DNA of 40,086 nucleotides from Candidatus Hydrogenedentota bacterium (GCA_018005585.1 JAGMZX010000044.1:1-40086); one strand, 5' to 3'; shown: positions 29,740 to 40,086, counted from the first letter of the stretch. A program made the numbers and translations. Notes: generated by a model not told the origin, from the letters alone.

Positions 29740-29788
29740 TGGCGGGGAACATCGCAAGGTGTTTGACCAGGAAGCGGAGGGAACTTCG

Positions 29789-32700
29789 ATGAAGTCGCAT
29801 CTGTTGGTCACGGTCTTTATGGTGGGAGCCAGTCTGCAAATGTCCGGAGACGCAGCCGCGGCCGATCCGGCTCTTCAGAGCACACGGACGCCGCTGGACG
29901 GTCCGGGCTGGGTCATGGCGACAGACCCGGCAAATACGGGCCGCGAGGAGGACTGGTTCAAGCAACCGGCTGCCGACGCAACGCCCGCGGAAGTTCCGAA
30001 TGTCTTGCAGGAAGTGTTTCCGGGGTATCACGGCGTGGCATGGTATTGGCGGACCCTCTCGCTGCCGCCGCACCCCGCGCCGGGCGGACGCTACCTGCTG
30101 CGCTTCTGGGCTGTCGACTACTTCGCGGAAGTGTGGCTCAACGGCGTCCCCGTGGGCAGTCACGAAGGAGCGGAAACGCCCTTCACGCTCGACGTGACCG
30201 GCGCCGCCAGGCCGTCACAAGACAACCTGCTTGCGGTGCGCGTGGTAAATCCGGGCAATGAACCCATCGACGGCATGGTGCTGGCCGAAATCCCGCACCG
30301 GAACAAGAACGCGAATCTGACCGTCGGCGGCTCTTACAACTACGGGGGCATCACGGAACCGGTGGAACTGCTTTTGGTCCCGTCCGCCCGCATTACGGAC
30401 GCGTTTGTGCGGCCCGGCTGGCAAACCGGCAAGGTCCAGGTGACTGTGGACGTATTCAACGCTTCCGCCGCGACGGAACCCGCGGTGCTGGAATTCACGA
30501 TCGCGCCCGCGCCCGGCGCCACGGCGCAAAGCGGGTCCGCCATCGCCGTATCCGCGCGCCTGAACCATGAGTGCCCGTCTGGCGCGAGCCAGTTGGAGAC
30601 GGAACTCACCGTGCCGCATCACCGCCTGTGGGACCTGCACGACCCGTGCCTGTACCGCCTCGCCGTGCGGCTGACGGCATCCACGACGCACATGATGGAC
30701 GAGTTTTCCGTCCGGTTCGGATTTCGCGATTTTCGCGTCGAGCACGGCTTCTTTCATCTGAACGGCCGGCGCATCTTCCTGCGCAGTTCGCACACGGGCA
30801 ATCATTGCCCCATCGGCCAGATCAGGTCGCCGCGCCAGGCGCCGGACCTGCTGCGCAAGGACCTCGTCCACGCGAAAGCCAGCGGCTTCAATATGGTCCG
30901 CTTCATCGCCGGGCTGGCGCACCCCTATCAACTCGACCTGTGCGACGAACTCGGCCTGATGGTGTACGAAGAAACGTTGGCGGGGTGGTGCCTCGCCGAT
31001 TCGCCGCAGATGGCGACGCGTTTCGACGGGAACATCCGGGAAGCCATCCTGCGCGACCGCAACCACCCCTGCCTCACGATCTTCGGGCTGCTCAATGAAA
31101 CAGCCGACGGTCCCGTCTTCCGCCGCGCCGTGGATGCATTGACGTGGCTGCGCGCACTAGACGACACGCGGCTCGTCTTGCTAAACAGCGGGCGATGGGA
31201 CGGCCAGTTCAGCATCGGTTCCGGCAGCAATCCCGGCAGCACGCAATGGGAATGCTTCTGGGGCGTCGAAAGCCCGGACCGCAAGGAAGTGAGCACTTGG
31301 GGACGTTTCGGCGGCTACTTCACCGGCGCGGGCGACGCGCATGTCTATCCTGAAACGCCGCACACGCCCGAGGTCGAGCAGGGCATCCGCACCTTGGGCG
31401 CGGACACGAAACCCGTCTTTCTCTCCGAATACGGGATTGGCAGTCTGATGAACGCGATTCAGGAACTGCGAACCTACGAACAGGTGGGCGCGGACCCCGC
31501 CTATGACGACGTCAAGTACTTCCAGAACACCGTCGACCGCTTCACCGCAGACTGGACCCGCTTCGGCATGGACGAGGTCTACGCGTTCCCCGAAGACATG
31601 CTCGAAGATAGCCAGCGCCTCCATTGCAGGCAGCGGCTGCTCGGGTTCAACCTGATCCGGTCCAACCCGCGAATCTGCGGCTACAACCTCACCGGGCTGC
31701 TCGACCACGGCTTCACCGGCGAGGGACTCTGGACTTACTGGCGCGAATGGAAGCCGGGCATTGTCGATGCGCTGCGCGACGGCTGGGCGCCGTTGCGCTG
31801 GTGCCTTTTCGTATCGCCGATGCACGGCTGCATCGGCCGCACGTTCAAGATCGAGGCTATCCTTGCCAACGAGAACGTGCTCGCGCCCGGCGAATACCCG
31901 GTTACACTGCGTATCATGGGACCCGAAGGGCTCCGCTGGGAGCACAAGGCGACTCTGACCGTGCCGGTTCCTCCTGCCGGGGAAGACGGGCCGCTGGCCA
32001 TTCCTGTGGCCGCCGAGGAAGTCACGATACCCTCAGGCCCGGGCAAGTACACCTTCGCGGCCAATCTCGACCGCGGGGGCGCGGCGGCGGGCGGAAGGCT
32101 CGACTTCTACCTGTCCGAGTCGTTGCCGATTCCGGCATCCGAAACCGGCGCGCGGCCCCGCGTCACGTTGTTAGGCCTGGACGGCCCCCTGCGCGATTGG
32201 CTGGAAGTCCACGGCGTCGACAGCGAGGCCTTCTCTTCCACCGAACCCGACGCACGCGAGGTAATCCTCGTTGGCGATATCGCCAGCGCGGGGGCACCGG
32301 ACGAGACACGCGCGCAACTCCTGACGCGCATGGCGCGCGGCAGCATAGTTGTGTTCCTCACACCGCATGCCTTTCAGATAGGCGACAATCCCGTGGCGGG
32401 GCTCCCGCTCAAGAGCAAGGGCCGCATGACGAGTTTCCCCGACTGGCTCTATCACAAGGAGTGCGTCGCGAAACGGCACGCCTTTTTCGCTGGAATGCAG
32501 GCCCCCGGTATCATGGACTGGGACTACTACGGCCCTGTCATATCCCACATGTTCCTGGAGGACGCGGAACTTCCGGAGGAGGTCATCGCCGCGGCGTTCG
32601 CGTTGTGCCACTCGTCGCGGCCGGACGGGTACGCCGCCGGGGTCATGATGGGCCGCTACCGTTTCGGCGAGGGCGCCTTCATCCTCAACACCTTCAACAT

Positions 32701-32845
32701 TATCGACAATATCGATCGCCATCCTGCGGCGGGGCTACTCGTGCTCAACATCGTGCAGGACGCGCTCGCGCGTGCCCAAACGCCGCTGGCGCCCCTTCCG
32801 GCCGACTTCGACGATCTGGTACGCGAAATCGCGGGCAAGTCATAG
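29789..32845 (+). CDS. Secreted glycoside hydrolase family 2 enzyme with C-terminal amidotransferase-like domain
   Basis: A 1018-residue protein with a signal peptide (cleavage near residue 24-26, DAAAA-D). GH2 order: sugar-binding jelly roll (about 35-190, YFAEVWLNGVPVGSHEG), Ig-like sandwich (about 200-320), TIM barrel (about 325-640). The proposed acid/base is Glu437 in LLNE and the nucleophile Glu547 in FLSEYG. The C-terminal region ends in a domain with LLGLDG, VILVGD, IVVFLTPHAF and GRYRFGEGAFILNTF, resembling the class I amidotransferase-like or beta-galactosidase trimerisation fold. The substrate could be a beta-galactoside, mannoside or glucuronide. GGAGG precedes the ATG. It converges on the HzsA-related gene, 35 bases away. 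Confidence 0.88.
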   Translation: MKSHLLVTVFMVGASLQMSGDAAAADPALQSTRTPLDGPGWVMATDPANTGREEDWFKQPAADATPAEVPNVLQEVFPGYHGVAWYWRTLSLPPHPAPGGRYLLRFWAVDYFAEVWLNGVPVGSHEGAETPFTLDVTGAARPSQDNLLAVRVVNPGNEPIDGMVLAEIPHRNKNANLTVGGSYNYGGITEPVELLLVPSARITDAFVRPGWQTGKVQVTVDVFNASAATEPAVLEFTIAPAPGATAQSGSAIAVSARLNHECPSGASQLETELTVPHHRLWDLHDPCLYRLAVRLTASTTHMMDEFSVRFGFRDFRVEHGFFHLNGRRIFLRSSHTGNHCPIGQIRSPRQAPDLLRKDLVHAKASGFNMVRFIAGLAHPYQLDLCDELGLMVYEETLAGWCLADSPQMATRFDGNIREAILRDRNHPCLTIFGLLNETADGPVFRRAVDALTWLRALDDTRLVLLNSGRWDGQFSIGSGSNPGSTQWECFWGVESPDRKEVSTWGRFGGYFTGAGDAHVYPETPHTPEVEQGIRTLGADTKPVFLSEYGIGSLMNAIQELRTYEQVGADPAYDDVKYFQNTVDRFTADWTRFGMDEVYAFPEDMLEDSQRLHCRQRLLGFNLIRSNPRICGYNLTGLLDHGFTGEGLWTYWREWKPGIVDALRDGWAPLRWCLFVSPMHGCIGRTFKIEAILANENVLAPGEYPVTLRIMGPEGLRWEHKATLTVPVPPAGEDGPLAIPVAAEEVTIPSGPGKYTFAANLDRGGAAAGGRLDFYLSESLPIPASETGARPRVTLLGLDGPLRDWLEVHGVDSEAFSSTEPDAREVILVGDIASAGAPDETRAQLLTRMARGSIVVFLTPHAFQIGDNPVAGLPLKSKGRMTSFPDWLYHKECVAKRHAFFAGMQAPGIMDWDYYGPVISHMFLEDAELPEEVIAAAFALCHSSRPDGYAAGVMMGRYRFGEGAFILNTFNIIDNIDRHPAAGLLVLNIVQDALARAQTPLAPLPADFDDLVREIAGKS

Positions 32846-32880: not shown

Positions 32881-35800
32881 TCACCGGTCCGCCACTGCCG
32901 TGGCGGTCTCGCAGACGACGCGAAATCCTGTGTCGTGGATCGCCTGCGACGCCTCGTAATGGACGCGGAATGTCGTTCGCGCGCGATTCGGGCAATCCAG
33001 CCACGAACCGCCCCGCACCACCTTGCGCGCGCTGTCTCCGGTACCTTCCGCGACACCTGATGCCGCGTACGGCGCATAAGCGGAACGCGTCCATTCCGCG
33101 ACGTTCCCATGCATGTCGTGAAGGCCCCACGCGTTCGGCGCAAAGGTCCCGGCGGGCGCCGATACGCGCCAGGCGTCATCAAAACGCGTGTCCGCGGGTC
33201 GCCAGGGCGGAATGGCGTCCGGCACGTGCGGGTAGTACACGGAGTGGTGCGTCTTGTCCGACAGATTCGCGAACCCGCCGAAATCGTCATCCAGCGTTCC
33301 GTAATTCATGCAGGTGACGGACCCCGCGCGGCACGCGTACTCCCACTGGGCCTCCGTAGGCAAGCTGAAATGCCTGCCCATCTTCGCGGAGAGCCAATCG
33401 CAGAAGGCCATGGCGTCATCCCATGAGACCCGCACGACCGGCTGCTCAGGACGATTCAGCGGAAAACCGCGTTCGTCATCGCCGAACTGATACGCCTCGC
33501 CCGTCTCCAGTCCGCTGTCGTGGTCCGGTTCAAAGCACCGATATTGCGCGTTGGTGACCTCGAAACGACCGATAAGAAAAGGCTGGTCGATAGTCACGGA
33601 GTGCGCGGGCCGCTCGTTCGGATACCCGTTGTCCGAGCCCATGATGAACTGTCCGGGTTCCATCGCGACCATTTCGAGAACCACGCCGTCGGCAATTCCG
33701 ATGGGAATGACCTCGACCCCATCCGATTGCGGTGCGCCACCGGTCGCGTCCGCCGTATTGGACGCACACGCGGTCAATTCCGCGTCTATGGCGTGCGCAA
33801 CTGGTTCGATCCCGGCCGCGGGGTATATCGCTTCGGGGTCTTCGTCAATGCCCGCGTATTTCCGGTGCAGTTCGCGGCGGCGGATGGCTCCCCGTCGCGC
33901 AGCGGCGGCCTTGACCGGGTCGGAAGCTACGACTTCCTGCCATGTGCCGTGAAATGGCGCGTTCAGGTCGATCCACGTGATGATTCTGTCCCACGCTTCC
34001 GCGTTGAGACATACCCCGTAGTGATCATCGCGGAGGATTTGCACGAGGCGGCTTGTGTCGGCATGAAAATCGCGCGGCGTCAGCAGATCCGCGTCGCTTT
34101 CGAGCGTGGGCGTGTGCACCCAGCGGCGCAGCTCCATGTACGACGGCGAGAAATGCATCTGGAACGCCGACGGCACCCGTTCGGCAGGCCGCGCGGTCAG
34201 GTCGAATGTGTCCGCGCCCGCCTTGTGGCAGCCAATACAGTACGCGTCAAGAACGGGTTGTACTTCGCGCTCGAAAGAGAACCCGCGCGCCGGACCGTAC
34301 CACGGCGTGATGCGCGACGGCCGCCGCCGGAACGCCTGGGGCGGCCCGCCGCTCTGGCCCGTCGTGTTCTGCTTCTCATGGCAGCCCACGCAGGACAGCG
34401 TCTCGCCCGGAGCGGCGGTCATCCAGCTTCGCATCAGAGCAAGGGCCTTGCCTTCCGCATCGAGCGGTTGCACCGAAATCGGTGTGCATGGCGGCACACG
34501 GAAGTGCGCCGAACCATCGGGTTCGACAGGCACCGTGCCGATAATCCGCTTGACGTCCCAAGGACCGTCCAGTCCGACGCGGTCCGGTTCGCCGCCGAGA
34601 CCATGAAACGTGAAATCATAGCCCACGAGCCGCAATGACTTGACCGTGCCGGGCGGCACGCCTTCGAGTCCCGGTCCGCGATACACATCGACCATCAGCA
34701 CCGTCGCTTCGGTTCCAACGGGAGCCCCCGTTGCCGGAATGACCGGCTGCCGCGGTGTGGCGCGCCACGGGACCGGTTCCAAGTACGCCCAACCGGGTTC
34801 CTCGCACAGCAGCACGAAATTATCGAACACGTCTACCAGATAGACGCCCCATTCGGATGTTTTCGCCGGCTTGCAGGATACGAGAAAATACTTCTCATTC
34901 AAGGGGAACGGATGCAGGAACCGCGGCCAGCTCGCCGCGATTAATCCGTCCAGGATTACTGGCTCCACCTTCTCGCCGTAGCCAGGGATACGCTGCACCA
35001 CGCCGTCTGTCTCGTGACGCCCGAGGGCGGGATCCAGGATGACCAGTTCCCCCTGGCGCGGCGCGTCGTGATGGCCGCCCGCGACTGCCGCCACTTTCGT
35101 AGGGTGCCCCGGAATCGCGCGCGCATAAAAGATGGCCGTGGGCCAGAACGAGTTGCTGCCATAGAATTCCATCTGCCCGCTGCCGTCCGGGTTCATGTGA
35201 AAGAGCAGCCGCGTGAATGCGTGGGCTATGTCCGCATATTCCCAGCGCTGATACAGGATACGCCCGTCATTCAGCACCGCCGGGCACCAGTTATGGTCCT
35301 GGTCGTTCGTAAGGCGCCGGATTTGTCCGTTGCGGTCGAGCAAGTAGAGGTTCGCCACCTTGGACCTTCCCCCGACGCAGGGCACGCCCACGAACGGAGC
35401 AGTAGACGTGAAGACGATGCCGCCGTCCGGCAGATAACACGCGTCATAATTGTGGACGTCCGGCTCGTCAATGAGCGGCAAACACTGCAACTGCCCGGTG
35501 GCGAGACCCAATTCCGCGATTCCCCAGCGCCCCGCGTCGTCCGGTATCGAGAGCAGCATCTTTCCGCCATCGTAGTGCAGGTCGAGGTCGCCGACGAACC
35601 GGCCGTCGGCGGGCGTGTAGACGTTGGAAAGCGTGCCCCCCGGCGCAAGCGGGCTGAGCGAAACAACTGCGTTCTCGTAGCCCCGGGGTTCCAGGTCGTC
35701 GTTGCCGTTGTAGTTCATCGGCAGGCAAAGCTTGTCCGCGCGCCGCCGGATCATCAACAGCCGGTCGAAGTCGAGCAGCGGGTTTTCCAGCAGCGCCGCG

Positions 35801-36855
35801 CGTTGCAGCGCCTCAAATTCCGCGACTACCGGCGCAAAGGAGTCCCTGCCCGAACCCTCGGGAATCCGGTCATGGCGATCCCGGAGCGCCGCCAGTTGCT
35901 GCAAGTAATCCGGGCCGTGCGTGTACCGGTCTGGAAAGCTGTGCGACAAATCCTCGATCGCCATGCGCAGTGCCCGCCAGCGCTGCGGCGCGATACCGGA
36001 TTCGTCCGGATACGCCAGTGCGGGAAACCTGGTGCGAATCACGACCGGACGCCACAAACTGGAGTCCGACAGATAGTGTATGAGATTTTCGGTCAACCGC
36101 AGCAGGTTCTGCCGATACGGGTTCTCCGCGTCCGCGTAATCCGGCCAGCGCCAACCGAAAAGAATGATCCGCCCGGAGCCCACGGCATACTCGACGAGCG
36201 GGCGTTCGACCCCGCGTGGCGTATTGGCCAGGAGCATGCCCTCACCCGGGCCGCCCCAGTAGAAGTCGGCCACCGCGGTGCATCCCCCGCGGCTAAGCCA
36301 GATGAGACCGTCTTGTTCCACCAGACCGGCAAACGCGGGGTGTGCTCGTTCGACAGCGACCATCGCCGCCTGGTCTCGGAAGTGTTCCAGGTCATGCCGC
36401 TGGGATCTCACGTCGCCTTCGAGTCCGAGGTGATCGACAAGGGCCAAACCGCCGCCGGACAGCAACACCCCTCCCCCCGCCTCGGCGAAGCCACGAATCG
36501 CCGCGACATATGCCCCGCCATAAAGCGCGTTTCGTGCAATGGCGTCGCCCTGGTGATACCAGACCGTGTCGAATTCGTTCAGGCTCCGCGCATTCCCTTC
36601 CGTATCGCGGAAACCGCCATTGCCGTCAATCAACAGCAGCGTGGCCGTTCCCAGCCCCGCCGCGGCATCCCGGCCCGCCCGGTCTTGCGGCCCCATCTCT
36701 TGCTCTGAGGTTTCCGCCGTGAGGAAAGCTATGCTTACCGGCGCTTGCGCGCCGGATACGCCGCAAGACAGCAGCGCGCAAGCCGTCAGGACGCCAAAGC
36801 GGCGCCGTGCACGCGAAATTGCACTCCCTTCTGCAACAAAAGAAACCGGGTTCAT
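32881..36855 (-). CDS. Secreted HzsA-related dihaem protein fused to a SUMF1/FGE-like domain
   Basis: A 1324-residue exported protein. The N-terminal signal (about residues 1-37) ends near SGAQA; LLSC inside it also permits a lipoprotein reading. A ThuA/amidotransferase-like domain follows (about 40-260), then a helical segment and beta-propeller-like repeats (about 370-690). A region resembling the hydrazine synthase alpha-subunit family comes next, with two c-haem sites CVGCH (822-826) and CIGCH (873-877). The SUMF1/formylglycine-enzyme-like domain spans about 1058-1320 (EMVAMEPGQFIMGS, LPTEAQWEYACRAG, HGNVAEWT, RGGSW). Its last motif has one Cys (Cys1288), not the pair of true FGE. HzsA relatives occur outside anammox bacteria, so hydrazine synthesis should not be assumed. 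The function is unknown. Confidence 0.85.
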   Translation of the reverse strand: MNPVSFVAEGSAISRARRRFGVLTACALLSCGVSGAQAPVSIAFLTAETSEQEMGPQDRAGRDAAAGLGTATLLLIDGNGGFRDTEGNARSLNEFDTVWYHQGDAIARNALYGGAYVAAIRGFAEAGGGVLLSGGGLALVDHLGLEGDVRSQRHDLEHFRDQAAMVAVERAHPAFAGLVEQDGLIWLSRGGCTAVADFYWGGPGEGMLLANTPRGVERPLVEYAVGSGRIILFGWRWPDYADAENPYRQNLLRLTENLIHYLSDSSLWRPVVIRTRFPALAYPDESGIAPQRWRALRMAIEDLSHSFPDRYTHGPDYLQQLAALRDRHDRIPEGSGRDSFAPVVAEFEALQRAALLENPLLDFDRLLMIRRRADKLCLPMNYNGNDDLEPRGYENAVVSLSPLAPGGTLSNVYTPADGRFVGDLDLHYDGGKMLLSIPDDAGRWGIAELGLATGQLQCLPLIDEPDVHNYDACYLPDGGIVFTSTAPFVGVPCVGGRSKVANLYLLDRNGQIRRLTNDQDHNWCPAVLNDGRILYQRWEYADIAHAFTRLLFHMNPDGSGQMEFYGSNSFWPTAIFYARAIPGHPTKVAAVAGGHHDAPRQGELVILDPALGRHETDGVVQRIPGYGEKVEPVILDGLIAASWPRFLHPFPLNEKYFLVSCKPAKTSEWGVYLVDVFDNFVLLCEEPGWAYLEPVPWRATPRQPVIPATGAPVGTEATVLMVDVYRGPGLEGVPPGTVKSLRLVGYDFTFHGLGGEPDRVGLDGPWDVKRIIGTVPVEPDGSAHFRVPPCTPISVQPLDAEGKALALMRSWMTAAPGETLSCVGCHEKQNTTGQSGGPPQAFRRRPSRITPWYGPARGFSFEREVQPVLDAYCIGCHKAGADTFDLTARPAERVPSAFQMHFSPSYMELRRWVHTPTLESDADLLTPRDFHADTSRLVQILRDDHYGVCLNAEAWDRIITWIDLNAPFHGTWQEVVASDPVKAAAARRGAIRRRELHRKYAGIDEDPEAIYPAAGIEPVAHAIDAELTACASNTADATGGAPQSDGVEVIPIGIADGVVLEMVAMEPGQFIMGSDNGYPNERPAHSVTIDQPFLIGRFEVTNAQYRCFEPDHDSGLETGEAYQFGDDERGFPLNRPEQPVVRVSWDDAMAFCDWLSAKMGRHFSLPTEAQWEYACRAGSVTCMNYGTLDDDFGGFANLSDKTHHSVYYPHVPDAIPPWRPADTRFDDAWRVSAPAGTFAPNAWGLHDMHGNVAEWTRSAYAPYAASGVAEGTGDSARKVVRGGSWLDCPNRARTTFRVHYEASQAIHDTGFRVVCETATAVADR

Positions 36856-36944: not shown

Positions 36945-38357
36945 CTACATACCATTCTTCGCCCATAGGTTATCATAGAAGAAACGGCGCACGTCTTCTT
37001 GCACCTGCTCTGGTAACGGGCAGGCAAAACCTCCGGCCAACCGCTCCACTTCCTCATGCGCATTCTCCAATAGCGTCTTGCCCTTTCCGTAGTCGAACAA
37101 ACCAGTTTCGAAGAATTCGCCGCCCCGTGCGTACTCGAGCGTCAGCGTATCGGTCAGAAAATCCCCGCCCGGACCCGCCGCATCCATGTTGTCTATCGCG
37201 AGCCGTGCCGGGTCCGCCGCGATACCCCGGTCGAGGAATTCCGCCGCGCGAAGCCACTCGTGCTGAATGACCATCATTTCCGCGGACAGCCCGGTGCCGT
37301 TGAAACAGGACCCGAGCCCCGACAGCAGGTCCGCGCCCGATCCCCGCGCCGCCAGCATGAATAACAGGCTTTCGGCCCCGGTTTGCAGGTCCAGACGCCC
37401 CGGCATCGCGCCGCCGCATTCCGCCATCCCGGGGAGTCCACAGTGCCGCGCCAGTTGCACGCCCGCGGCCTTCCACAGCGCCTTGTCCAGCGTGTAATAC
37501 CGGTCATGGCCCGTCCGCAGGTTCGTAACCGAAGGACCGATGCCGTAGAGAAAGGGATGTCCCGGCCGCAGCAATTGCGTGACGGCGGCCATGGTCAGGT
37601 TTTCGCAATGCGCGAGCAGCAGCGTGCCCGCAAGCGTGTAAGGCGCGGTCGCGCCCGCCATGGGGCACACTGTCGGCAGTATGGGCATGCCGCATTCGCA
37701 TGCCGCAAGCAGCAATTCCGCATTCAGCGGGGAAAGTGTCAACGGCGACAGCACCGCCACCGCGCAACTCATCAGACCGGAGCCGTCCAGCGCATCGCCG
37801 CCGTTCAAGACCTGTCCCAGCGCCCGCCAAAGACGTAACCGTTCAAGGGAAGCAGGAAACACGGCGTAGTGTTTCGCGTGGTGGAGCACATGCGTCTCCA
37901 GTGCACGAAGACTGGAGAGGGCATCGTCGAAATCCGTTACCGGATAATCCATGCAACTCACGCATTTCACGCAGTCGAGCTGCTGCGCGATGATCGTGTG
38001 CCGCCGCACGTCGTCCAGACACGGATGCCGCGGTTTCTGACATCGGGAATCGAGTATCCATGGGTCATTCGTGATCGCGAGCACACCCGGCTGCCCTTTC
38101 CCCAAGGTCCACGGCCCATTTTCAACGCCGCGAATCGCATAGGCCGCGGGCGCGCATTCCAGCAGGGACGTCAGCAGCGTCTCCGGCCAGCGCACCCGGC
38201 CAGCCACGGCATCCACACGCGCGCCCGCCTGCGCAAGGCGCGCCAGCAGGCCGTCGTGCTGCACACGGCAACCTGTATGTTCCAAGAGCCGCAGCGCAGA
38301 CTCGTGAATTTGCCCGACTTGGCTGTCCGTTAACACCGCACAGGTCATGAAGGACAT
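36945..38357 (-). CDS. MttB superfamily (trimethylamine/betaine methyltransferase-like) protein, no pyrrolysine
   Basis: A 470-residue TIM-barrel methyltransferase of the MttB family, which moves a methyl group from a quaternary or tertiary amine to a corrinoid protein. The N-terminal VLTDSQVGQIHESALRLLE segment and the C-terminal half (GLPGMAECGGAMPG, GADLLSGLGS) fit the family. No in-frame TAG is present, so it is of the non-pyrrolysine kind, as in glycine betaine methyltransferase MtgB. No corrinoid protein or reactivase gene is in the window. Start choice is weak: ATG 38357 and ATG 38348 both lack a Shine-Dalgarno, and the frame stays open upstream through a hexamer repeat. It is followed by the HzsA-related gene after 89 bases. 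Confidence 0.85.
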   Translation of the reverse strand: MSFMTCAVLTDSQVGQIHESALRLLEHTGCRVQHDGLLARLAQAGARVDAVAGRVRWPETLLTSLLECAPAAYAIRGVENGPWTLGKGQPGVLAITNDPWILDSRCQKPRHPCLDDVRRHTIIAQQLDCVKCVSCMDYPVTDFDDALSSLRALETHVLHHAKHYAVFPASLERLRLWRALGQVLNGGDALDGSGLMSCAVAVLSPLTLSPLNAELLLAACECGMPILPTVCPMAGATAPYTLAGTLLLAHCENLTMAAVTQLLRPGHPFLYGIGPSVTNLRTGHDRYYTLDKALWKAAGVQLARHCGLPGMAECGGAMPGRLDLQTGAESLLFMLAARGSGADLLSGLGSCFNGTGLSAEMMVIQHEWLRAAEFLDRGIAADPARLAIDNMDAAGPGGDFLTDTLTLEYARGGEFFETGLFDYGKGKTLLENAHEEVERLAGGFACPLPEQVQEDVRRFFYDNLWAKNGM

Positions 38358-38404: not shown

Positions 38405-40066
38405 TCAGCCGCCCGGCCTTCCCGCGGCCAATTCTGTTGCTTCCGCCTCCGTCAGGGCGCGGTTGTAGATACGCAATTCACACAATTGACCGTGAAACGC
38501 GTCATGGGAGCCTCTGCCGATACACAGCGGGATGTCCTCAGGCATCGCAAACTGTTCCGCGGGGCATTCCACGGCTCCGGCAAGGGCGCCGTTGACGTAC
38601 AATCGAATCGCGGCCGCTCCGCGCACGGCCAGCAGGTGATTCCACCCGGGCTCAAGTGACCGGTCATGCGTCACGCATTTCCCCGCCCCCATGGCGTATA
38701 CACGACCCGACGGCAGCGTGCCCGCGAAGAGTCTGCCTTGATATACCGCCATGGACCATACGCGCCGGTATTTTACGTCAGGCGTCAGGTCCAGCCGGCC
38801 CGTGGACGCCCAGCGGTTTCCGCCCTCAAAGCGGTACACCGCGGCCAGCGGCAGCGAACCCGCGTACAACGCCCCGTTGTACGCGGCCATGGCCATGACT
38901 TCCTGTTCCCCTTCCGCGAGCTGTCCGCAATCCTCCCACCTCTCTCCGCCGCCATACCGGTACACCATGCCGCTCGGCCAGGTGCCAGCATACAGGCTGC
39001 CCGCGTACGTGGCGAACGAATAGCTCTGATGGATATTGGGCGGAGTGCCCGCACAGGACCAGGAGACGCCGTCGTAGCGGAAGATGCCCGGCCGCTCCGC
39101 GTCCCAGCCTGTCGCGTAGAGGGCATCCTGAAACACGGTAAGCGCTTCGACACGATAGCCGGGGTGGCCGCAGGACTCCCAGACGCCGCCGCCCGCGTAG
39201 CGATACATGCCCGCGGGCGCATACATGGACGTGGCGTACAGAAGGCCGCGGAACACGGCCATCCCGCCGACGGCCTCGGTCTCGCCGATCGCGCCGCAAT
39301 CGGCCCACGACGAGTCTTCTTCATAGCGGAAGATGCGTCCGCCGGGCGTGAGATTCTCGGATTCGGCCAGGGCGGAGCCTGCCGCGCGATAGTGCGAGGC
39401 CGCCGCGTACAGACGGCCCTCGTACACAGCCAGCGCCGTGACCGCGTTGCTCCCGTGCGGCGCGCCGCAATCCGTCCATGCCGTGCCGCCATCGTAGCGG
39501 TAGACATGCCCCTTCTGCTCCCTCCCGCTCTCGAAAGTGCCCGCGTAGAGCGCGCCTTCGTGTACGCACAGCGCCCAGACCATGCTGTTATCGCCGGGCC
39601 GTCCGCAGTCCGTCCACGGCGACTCCGGCGCGCCGTTGTTCACGCCGAAGAACGGGTTCTCCCAATTCGGCTGAGCGGAAGTCACGCCGCGCCGCGTTTG
39701 GACCGCAAGGTTGAATCCCGTCCGGCGTTCGGGGTCGAACAGGCTCGCCACATCGCCGAAGCATTCGCCGTCTGCTTCCAGACCGCGGACCCAGACGCTG
39801 ATCGCGAATTCACCCGTTCCGGCAAGACCGGTATTCGCCGTGTCAGCCTCGAGGTAACTGCCGTCGCCGTGGAAGGCCGCGCCTTCCGGCGTGATCGTAA
39901 CGCCGTGGTTGACGAACTGCGCTGCAATACCGGCGCCGTCCTCGCCGCTTTCGAACAGGGTCGCGTACTCCGCGGACCAGGCGGCGGCGTGCAGGCACAG
40001 GCCGGGCAGGAACAGCAGGCTGACAAATGCCGCGCCTTTCCGAAACGCGGGGCGCCACGTCCGCAT
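38405..40066 (-). CDS. Secreted LamG-type jelly roll interrupted by a seven-bladed beta-propeller
   Basis: A 553-residue protein with a signal peptide (hydrophobic core about 12-29). Residues about 57-145 give the first half of a LamG/concanavalin-like domain (FHGDGSYLE, FAISVWVRG). Residues about 150-460 are seven repeats of some 40-55 residues opening with W-x-DCG and continuing with VYEGRLYA and VYRYDGG-type strands, a seven-bladed propeller. Residues about 465-550 return to the jelly roll (GWNHLLAVRG, LYVNGALAG, GQLCELRIYNRALTEAEATEL). LamG domains bind glycans or proteins outside the cell. ATG 40066 was chosen; TTG 40075 is in frame, and the window ends 20 bases upstream, so a longer N-terminus cannot be excluded. 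Confidence 0.82.
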   Translation of the reverse strand: MRTWRPAFRKGAAFVSLLFLPGLCLHAAAWSAEYATLFESGEDGAGIAAQFVNHGVTITPEGAAFHGDGSYLEADTANTGLAGTGEFAISVWVRGLEADGECFGDVASLFDPERRTGFNLAVQTRRGVTSAQPNWENPFFGVNNGAPESPWTDCGRPGDNSMVWALCVHEGALYAGTFESGREQKGHVYRYDGGTAWTDCGAPHGSNAVTALAVYEGRLYAAASHYRAAGSALAESENLTPGGRIFRYEEDSSWADCGAIGETEAVGGMAVFRGLLYATSMYAPAGMYRYAGGGVWESCGHPGYRVEALTVFQDALYATGWDAERPGIFRYDGVSWSCAGTPPNIHQSYSFATYAGSLYAGTWPSGMVYRYGGGERWEDCGQLAEGEQEVMAMAAYNGALYAGSLPLAAVYRFEGGNRWASTGRLDLTPDVKYRRVWSMAVYQGRLFAGTLPSGRVYAMGAGKCVTHDRSLEPGWNHLLAVRGAAAIRLYVNGALAGAVECPAEQFAMPEDIPLCIGRGSHDAFHGQLCELRIYNRALTEAEATELAAGRPGG

Positions 40067-40086
40067 TGGCCGCAATTGGGTTTTCA

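Follow-up and report, generated by a model that had tools for sequence, protein, structure and literature searches.

To our knowledge, hydrazine synthase (HZS) was long believed to stand without relatives. In its alpha subunit (HzsA), the CxxCH residue His587 holds zinc and Tyr591 is a haem iron ligand (PMC12607021; PMC12758564). The latter, a survey of December 2025, reported that non-anammox HZS-alpha homologues have lost the Tyr site and that alpha and beta-gamma genes co-localise in other bacteria; among the best structural matches to HZS alpha it found no protein with a different function confirmed by experiment (PMC12758564). Here we describe an HzsA-like gene on the minus strand of a 40,086-nucleotide stretch of DNA from Candidatus Hydrogenedentota bacterium (GCA_018005585.1, JAGMZX010000044.1:1-40086; the whole stretch is called the window), in which a dihaem core is covalently joined to an N-terminal ThuA/DUF4960-like and a C-terminal SUMF1-like domain. 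The gene and its parts, with the supporting evidence in brackets, are as follows:

32881..36855, minus strand: full coding sequence, 1324 amino acids, with ThuA/DUF4960-like, propeller, HZS-alpha-like dihaem and SUMF1-like parts (open reading frame, Pfam, structure models, orthologues)
36745..36855, minus strand: probable signal peptide, residues 1-37, with RARRR, a hydrophobic stretch and AQA (sequence)
36052..36744, minus strand: ThuA-fold/DUF4960-like domain, residues 38-268 (Foldseek; DUF4960 profile)
35788..35988, minus strand: helical linker region, residues 290-356 (predicted helices)
34696..35763, minus strand: beta-propeller, about residues 365-720 (TolB matches, Foldseek; Cys493, His595 and His596 nearly invariant in 52 sequences)
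34375..34650, minus strand: HZS alpha middle domain PF18582, residues 736-827 (Pfam; Foldseek match 5c2v_A)
34378..34392, minus strand: first haem c motif, CVGCH, residues 822-826, followed by the family-typical Glu827 (52/52 in the family alignment)
34366..34368, minus strand: Asn830, at the position of Tyr591, the haem alpha-I ligand of HZS (profile alignment, family alignment, papers)
34225..34239, minus strand: second haem c motif, CIGCH, residues 873-877 (51/51 in the family alignment)
34021..34023, minus strand: His945, which may be the distal ligand of the second haem (in the profile alignment it falls within one residue of HZS His772; kept in 48/51)
33691..33813, minus strand: variable low-confidence linker, about residues 1015-1055 (alignment, model)
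32914..33675, minus strand: SUMF1/PvdO-like domain, residues 1061-1314 (PF03781; PvdO 5hha_A)
32980..32997, minus strand: copper-ligand positions of formylglycine-generating enzyme (FGE), with Asp1287 and Ala1292 replacing Cys336 and Cys341 (alignment to human FGE)

The reading frame runs from 36855 to 32881 over 1324 codons and a stop codon without an internal stop; an in-frame ATG further upstream, at 36966, would give an alternative product of 1361 amino acids. Both CxxCH sites and Asn830 lie in the translated frame exactly where a preliminary description, made from the sequence alone, had placed them. The middle domain matched Pfam HZS_alpha with an E-value of 4.1e-28 (98.2 bits; gathering score 26.6). 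Two overlapping AlphaFold2 models were built, one of residues 270-1324 (predicted local distance difference test, pLDDT, 85; predicted template modelling score, pTM, 0.84) and one of residues 38-1015 (pLDDT 87, pTM 0.87). HZS alpha, 5c2v_A, was the best Foldseek match in the PDB for both (E 2.5e-28 and 1.3e-28, respectively), with a TM-score of 0.61-0.62 by target length over about 795 columns at 16% identity. The core thus modelled has the hydrazine-synthase-alpha fold, and this comparison, which the preliminary description had proposed as a check, bears out its HzsA-related dihaem-motif protein together with the motifs and the Pfam match; its propeller repeats are likewise borne out, by TolB and Foldseek matches.

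The window protein is probably secreted, as its N-terminal sequence suggests, and the hydrophobic stretch stands just ahead of a conserved IAFL start in those orthologues that extend so far. Haem would be attached at both CxxCH motifs, and two proteins of the same genome carry the cytochrome-c-assembly domain PF01578. Across the 52-sequence family alignment a further signature was retained, comprising Cys493 (52/52), His595 (48/52), His596 (51/52), Met808 (51/52) and Glu827 (50/52). These residues bear on the idea of a generic electron-transfer cytochrome, at the surface or in the periplasm, that has binding domains but itself catalyses nothing. Such a role would suit the second haem motif, which sits in an ordinary cytochrome-c-like domain with the conserved His945, and the canonical haem pocket predicted for a related HzsA homologue (PMC12758564). 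We consider it unlikely, because the near-complete retention of the signature goes beyond the needs of a bare relay and no multihaem conduit gene adjoins the locus.

HZS residue positions were taken from a profile alignment to 5c2v and from the papers, not from a direct alignment with anammox HzsA. At the Tyr591 column, none of the 52 family sequences has Tyr. No Cys occurs in residues 541-652 of the window protein, between the alignment anchors that flank the Cys303 equivalent; this zinc ligand is also missing in some anammox bacteria (PMC12758564). The NCBIfam model for hydrazine synthase alpha, NF052339, scored 27 bits against a cut-off of 800. Missing ligands and this score together rule out a functional hydrazine synthase. 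Neither hzsB nor hzsC lies within the window, and the HzsBC-like gene of the genome is on a different contig. The preliminary description had correctly placed a Tyr four residues after the first CxxCH His of HZS alpha (Tyr591), and its deduction that the chemistry is likely unlike that of hydrazine synthase is supported here. Its central point on the missing Tyr is right but not new, given the survey cited above.

For the orthologue scan, one genome per species was used. Complete orthologues aligned from about residue 17 to about residue 1319 at 58-76% identity, with hosts in Hydrogenedentota, Planctomycetota (Phycisphaerae, Sedimentisphaerales), Omnitrophota and Verrucomicrobiota. The N-terminal domain was present in 19 of 68 Hydrogenedentota genomes, in exactly one copy each. 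The same architecture recurred in 18 aligned orthologues (window protein included), which rules out the assembly or frameshift artefact that had been named as a possible refutation and establishes a genuine covalent fusion. The HZS core tree placed 37 rows, including the window protein and every SUMF1-bearing row, in one clade with 100/100 support. Four rows inside it were scored as unfused; in all of them the match ends before the C-terminus, three times at a contig end and once (L031) where the frame breaks or the sequence is masked. Orthologues bearing the ThuA domain made up a 100/100 subclade. Judged by this tree, the joining of HzsA to SUMF1 is the hallmark of a single clade within a large HzsA-like family, and the topology fits a single joining of HzsA and SUMF1 followed by changes of the N-terminal domain. 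We found no published mention of the SUMF1/DUF4960 fusion clade or of its HzsABC-like loci, and no experiments in the literature on any member of the SUMF1-fused clade.

The C-terminal SUMF1-like domain of the preliminary description was confirmed by Pfam FGE-sulfatase PF03781 (residues 1061-1314; E 1.8e-50; 172 bits against a cut-off of 23.3) and by its fold, for which PvdO (5hha_A) was the closest solved structure (Foldseek E 2.4e-15, TMt 0.74), with FGE next. An FGE that uses the haems as electron acceptor would draw on this Pfam match and on the sulfatases encoded in the genome. Its probability is minute, as both copper-ligand cysteines are absent from every aligned orthologue: Asp1287 is invariant (18/18), and position 1292 holds Ala in 15/18 and Gly in 3/18. 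On these replacements we rejected a formylglycine-generating enzyme, and because of them the earlier wording of an oxidase-type SUMF1 domain is unsupported. The structural check against FGE upheld the SUMF1 fold and placed it closer to PvdO.

Among the Foldseek matches of the model containing this domain was also Treponema denticola variable protein 1 (2y3c), a reminder that SUMF1-like folds occur as variable binding domains as well. It lends something to the notion of a surface protein with an adhesive or structural role, whose SUMF1-like, propeller and ThuA-like domains would act as lectin-type scaffolds and whose haems would be vestigial; so do the many SUMF1 domains of the genome. Since few residues of the family are as well conserved as the haem motifs, we regard this as quite improbable. 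As a separate observation, the genome (G000) holds more than 20 SUMF1-like domain matches, an apparently expanded set.

At the other end of the protein, the N-terminal domain gave Foldseek matches to a DUF4960 protein of a levan utilisome (8aa2_G, E 1.3e-7) and to the ThuA-like 1t0b (E 5.7e-7), and every one of the 16 orthologous N-domains compared was matched by the DUF4960 profile (PF16324) at E <= 1 (best 4e-8). Published work demonstrates levan binding by DUF4960 and a likeness to ThuA (PMC10076258, PMC7618045). The domain had been called amidotransferase-like, which holds for the fold; among characterised proteins, it comes nearest to a levan-binding domain and a ThuA-like protein rather than to an amidotransferase. 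By analogy, the N-domain may bind a glycan.

Our preferred reading, which we put forward tentatively, is that the window protein is a dihaem redox protein that is tethered to a polymer and serves in polysaccharide catabolism. It is suggested because four paralogues carry NPCBM, LamG or F5/8C domains. The genome has ten HZS_alpha-domain genes, and 4 of the 8 HzsA-like paralogues scanned bear such an additional N-terminal domain: NPCBM (E 4e-23), LamG (3e-19 and 2e-17) and a weak F5/8C (1e-6). Cytochromes are known to be paired with carbohydrate-binding modules in the PSCyt (planctomycete-specific cytochrome) proteins of Verrucomicrobia (PMC5615132). The protein would be a c-type cytochrome with two haems that works outside the cytoplasm and has the hydrazine-synthase-alpha fold as its base; the DUF4960/ThuA-fold domain probably tethers it to a polysaccharide. 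Propeller and haems would form the redox unit, with the SUMF1/PvdO-like domain probably serving as a binding or non-copper accessory domain. While polysaccharide is broken down, the protein would most likely pass on electrons or oxidise a substrate, either on the cell surface or in the periplasm. Of the uncharacterised extracytoplasmic redox enzyme proposed earlier, probable secretion is upheld and the enzyme part is plausible.

Three genes surround the locus in the window:

29759..32845, plus strand: convergent neighbour, GH2-type glycoside hydrolase (Pfam)
36945..38357, minus strand: MTTB-family gene between the LamG gene and the target gene (Pfam, neighbour comparison)
38405..40075, minus strand: LamG-domain gene upstream, which also adjoins the orthologue in L011 (Pfam, neighbour comparison)

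At the closest orthologue, L011, the LamG gene lies directly upstream with no intervening MTTB gene, and no MTTB gene was found near the orthologues tested. An operon with a fixed partner was discarded, as no shared partner was seen among the neighbours of the orthologues. In favour of a link to polysaccharides, the window gene has the LamG gene upstream and the GH2 gene downstream, and neighbours of the paralogues include GH38, alpha-L-fucosidase, GH2, 3-keto-disaccharide hydrolase and sulfatase genes. Genome-wide, we counted 58 GH2, GH38, GH29 or 3-keto-disaccharide hydrolase domains in 6.08 Mb, and such a hydrolase lies within 5 kb of 4 of the 10 HzsA-like loci against about 1.3 expected, a rough estimate with families chosen after the neighbours had been seen. 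The 3-keto-disaccharide hydrolase family alone has 26 matches in this genome (G000) and appears expanded.

Several points weigh against a polysaccharide role. The count of glycoside hydrolases was made only after their association had caught our eye, and is not a clean test. No conserved neighbour or common partner was seen at the orthologue neighbourhoods compared, and carbohydrate binding is not the only setting in which LamG and F5/8C domains occur. The N-domain of the window protein taken alone scored 24.0 bits against PF16324, under the gathering score of 29.2. Finally, the SUMF1-fused paralogues in HzsBC-like loci adjoin RidA-like and DeoC genes, not glycoside hydrolases.

These loci open a different view. 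On contig C39 of the window's genome, a SUMF1-fused paralogue is directly followed by a 617-residue propeller-dihaem protein that matches HZS beta (E 1.4e-27) and gamma (E 1.8e-18), the single full-length copy of this HzsBC-like fusion in the genome. The adjacency of HzsA-like and HzsBC-like genes recurs in genomes G040, G003, G011, G032 and G046, and in G042 by match coordinates. Related genomes have one HzsBC-like gene adjoining HzsA-like genes, one of the latter SUMF1-fused in G040, G003 and G011; in G032 and G046 they are unfused. RidA-like genes occur at the HzsBC-like loci of G000, G011 and G032, and DeoC-family genes at the G003 locus and beside the C16 paralogue.

The window protein could accordingly be imagined as an alternative alpha-type subunit of a non-anammox HZS-like complex, pairing in trans with the HzsBC-like protein of the genome for redox chemistry of nitrogen or other small molecules. 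The C39 arrangement, its recurrence and the RidA-like genes speak for such a subunit. We give it little credence: the window gene lies outside any HzsBC-like locus and on another contig, its orthologues have no common partner, and Tyr591, the Cys303 equivalent and, by alignment of the HzsBC-like protein, gamma Cys165 are all absent. A broader proposal joins both lines: the multi-phylum SUMF1-fused clade, part of which is encoded alongside RidA-like and DeoC genes in HzsA-HzsBC-like loci, would be a non-anammox relative of the HZS complex with its own undescribed chemistry, and the window protein its polymer-tethered alpha version. This we hold to be possible but rather doubtful.

Some further observations concern these loci. 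The HZS-like locus is conserved in Hydrogenedentota, at L129:2312-8172 (G000:C39) and in L157, L158, L159, L160 and L161, with RidA-like (Ribonuc_L-PSP) genes in or beside it at L129:8172-9281, L159:7279-8496 and L160:7253-8479. In two genomes, a small protein that begins with a twin-arginine-type sequence and matches no Pfam family (L158:9677-10345, L130:4749-5420) sits between a DeoC-family aldolase and a SUMF1-fused HzsA gene. A record titled Candidatus Kuenenia stuttgartiensis (L069) belongs to a genome without a hydrazine synthase alpha match, and its relatives have none above the cut-off; probably the title is wrong or the genome incomplete.

The conserved glycan-binding-type fusion and the carbohydrate-binding-type modules on paralogues give a concrete substrate hint for part of the HzsA-like family. 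The SUMF1-fused HzsA-HzsBC-like loci offer a compact, expressible system for probing the roles of hydrazine synthase relatives.

Compared with known systems, the window protein shares with HZS alpha (kuste2861, 5c2v chain A) the propeller, the HZS_alpha middle domain and the C-terminal cytochrome c domain in identical order. It differs by its added DUF4960-like and SUMF1-like domains and by lacking the Tyr591 and Cys303 equivalents and an HzsB/HzsC neighbour. Non-anammox HzsA homologues of clades I-IV have the same core without Tyr591 and Cys303 and retain the first haem motif; their genes co-localise with beta-gamma-like genes, as do some paralogues in the window's genome, and the text of the survey that was searched mentions neither a SUMF1 nor a sulfatase-domain fusion (PMC12758564). 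PSCyt proteins of PVC-type bacteria similarly join c-type cytochromes to LamG and NPCBM modules but belong to other cytochrome families, and their description does not mention hydrazine synthase (PMC5615132). With the SUMF1/PvdO/FGE family (PF03781) the C-terminal domain has the fold in common, but it lacks the copper cysteines and is joined to a dihaem module. The levan-binding DUF4960 domain of BT1761 (8aa2) shares the ThuA-like fold and a weak but consistent sequence similarity with the N-domain; in BT1761 it is attached to Ig-like domains, in the window protein to a cytochrome.

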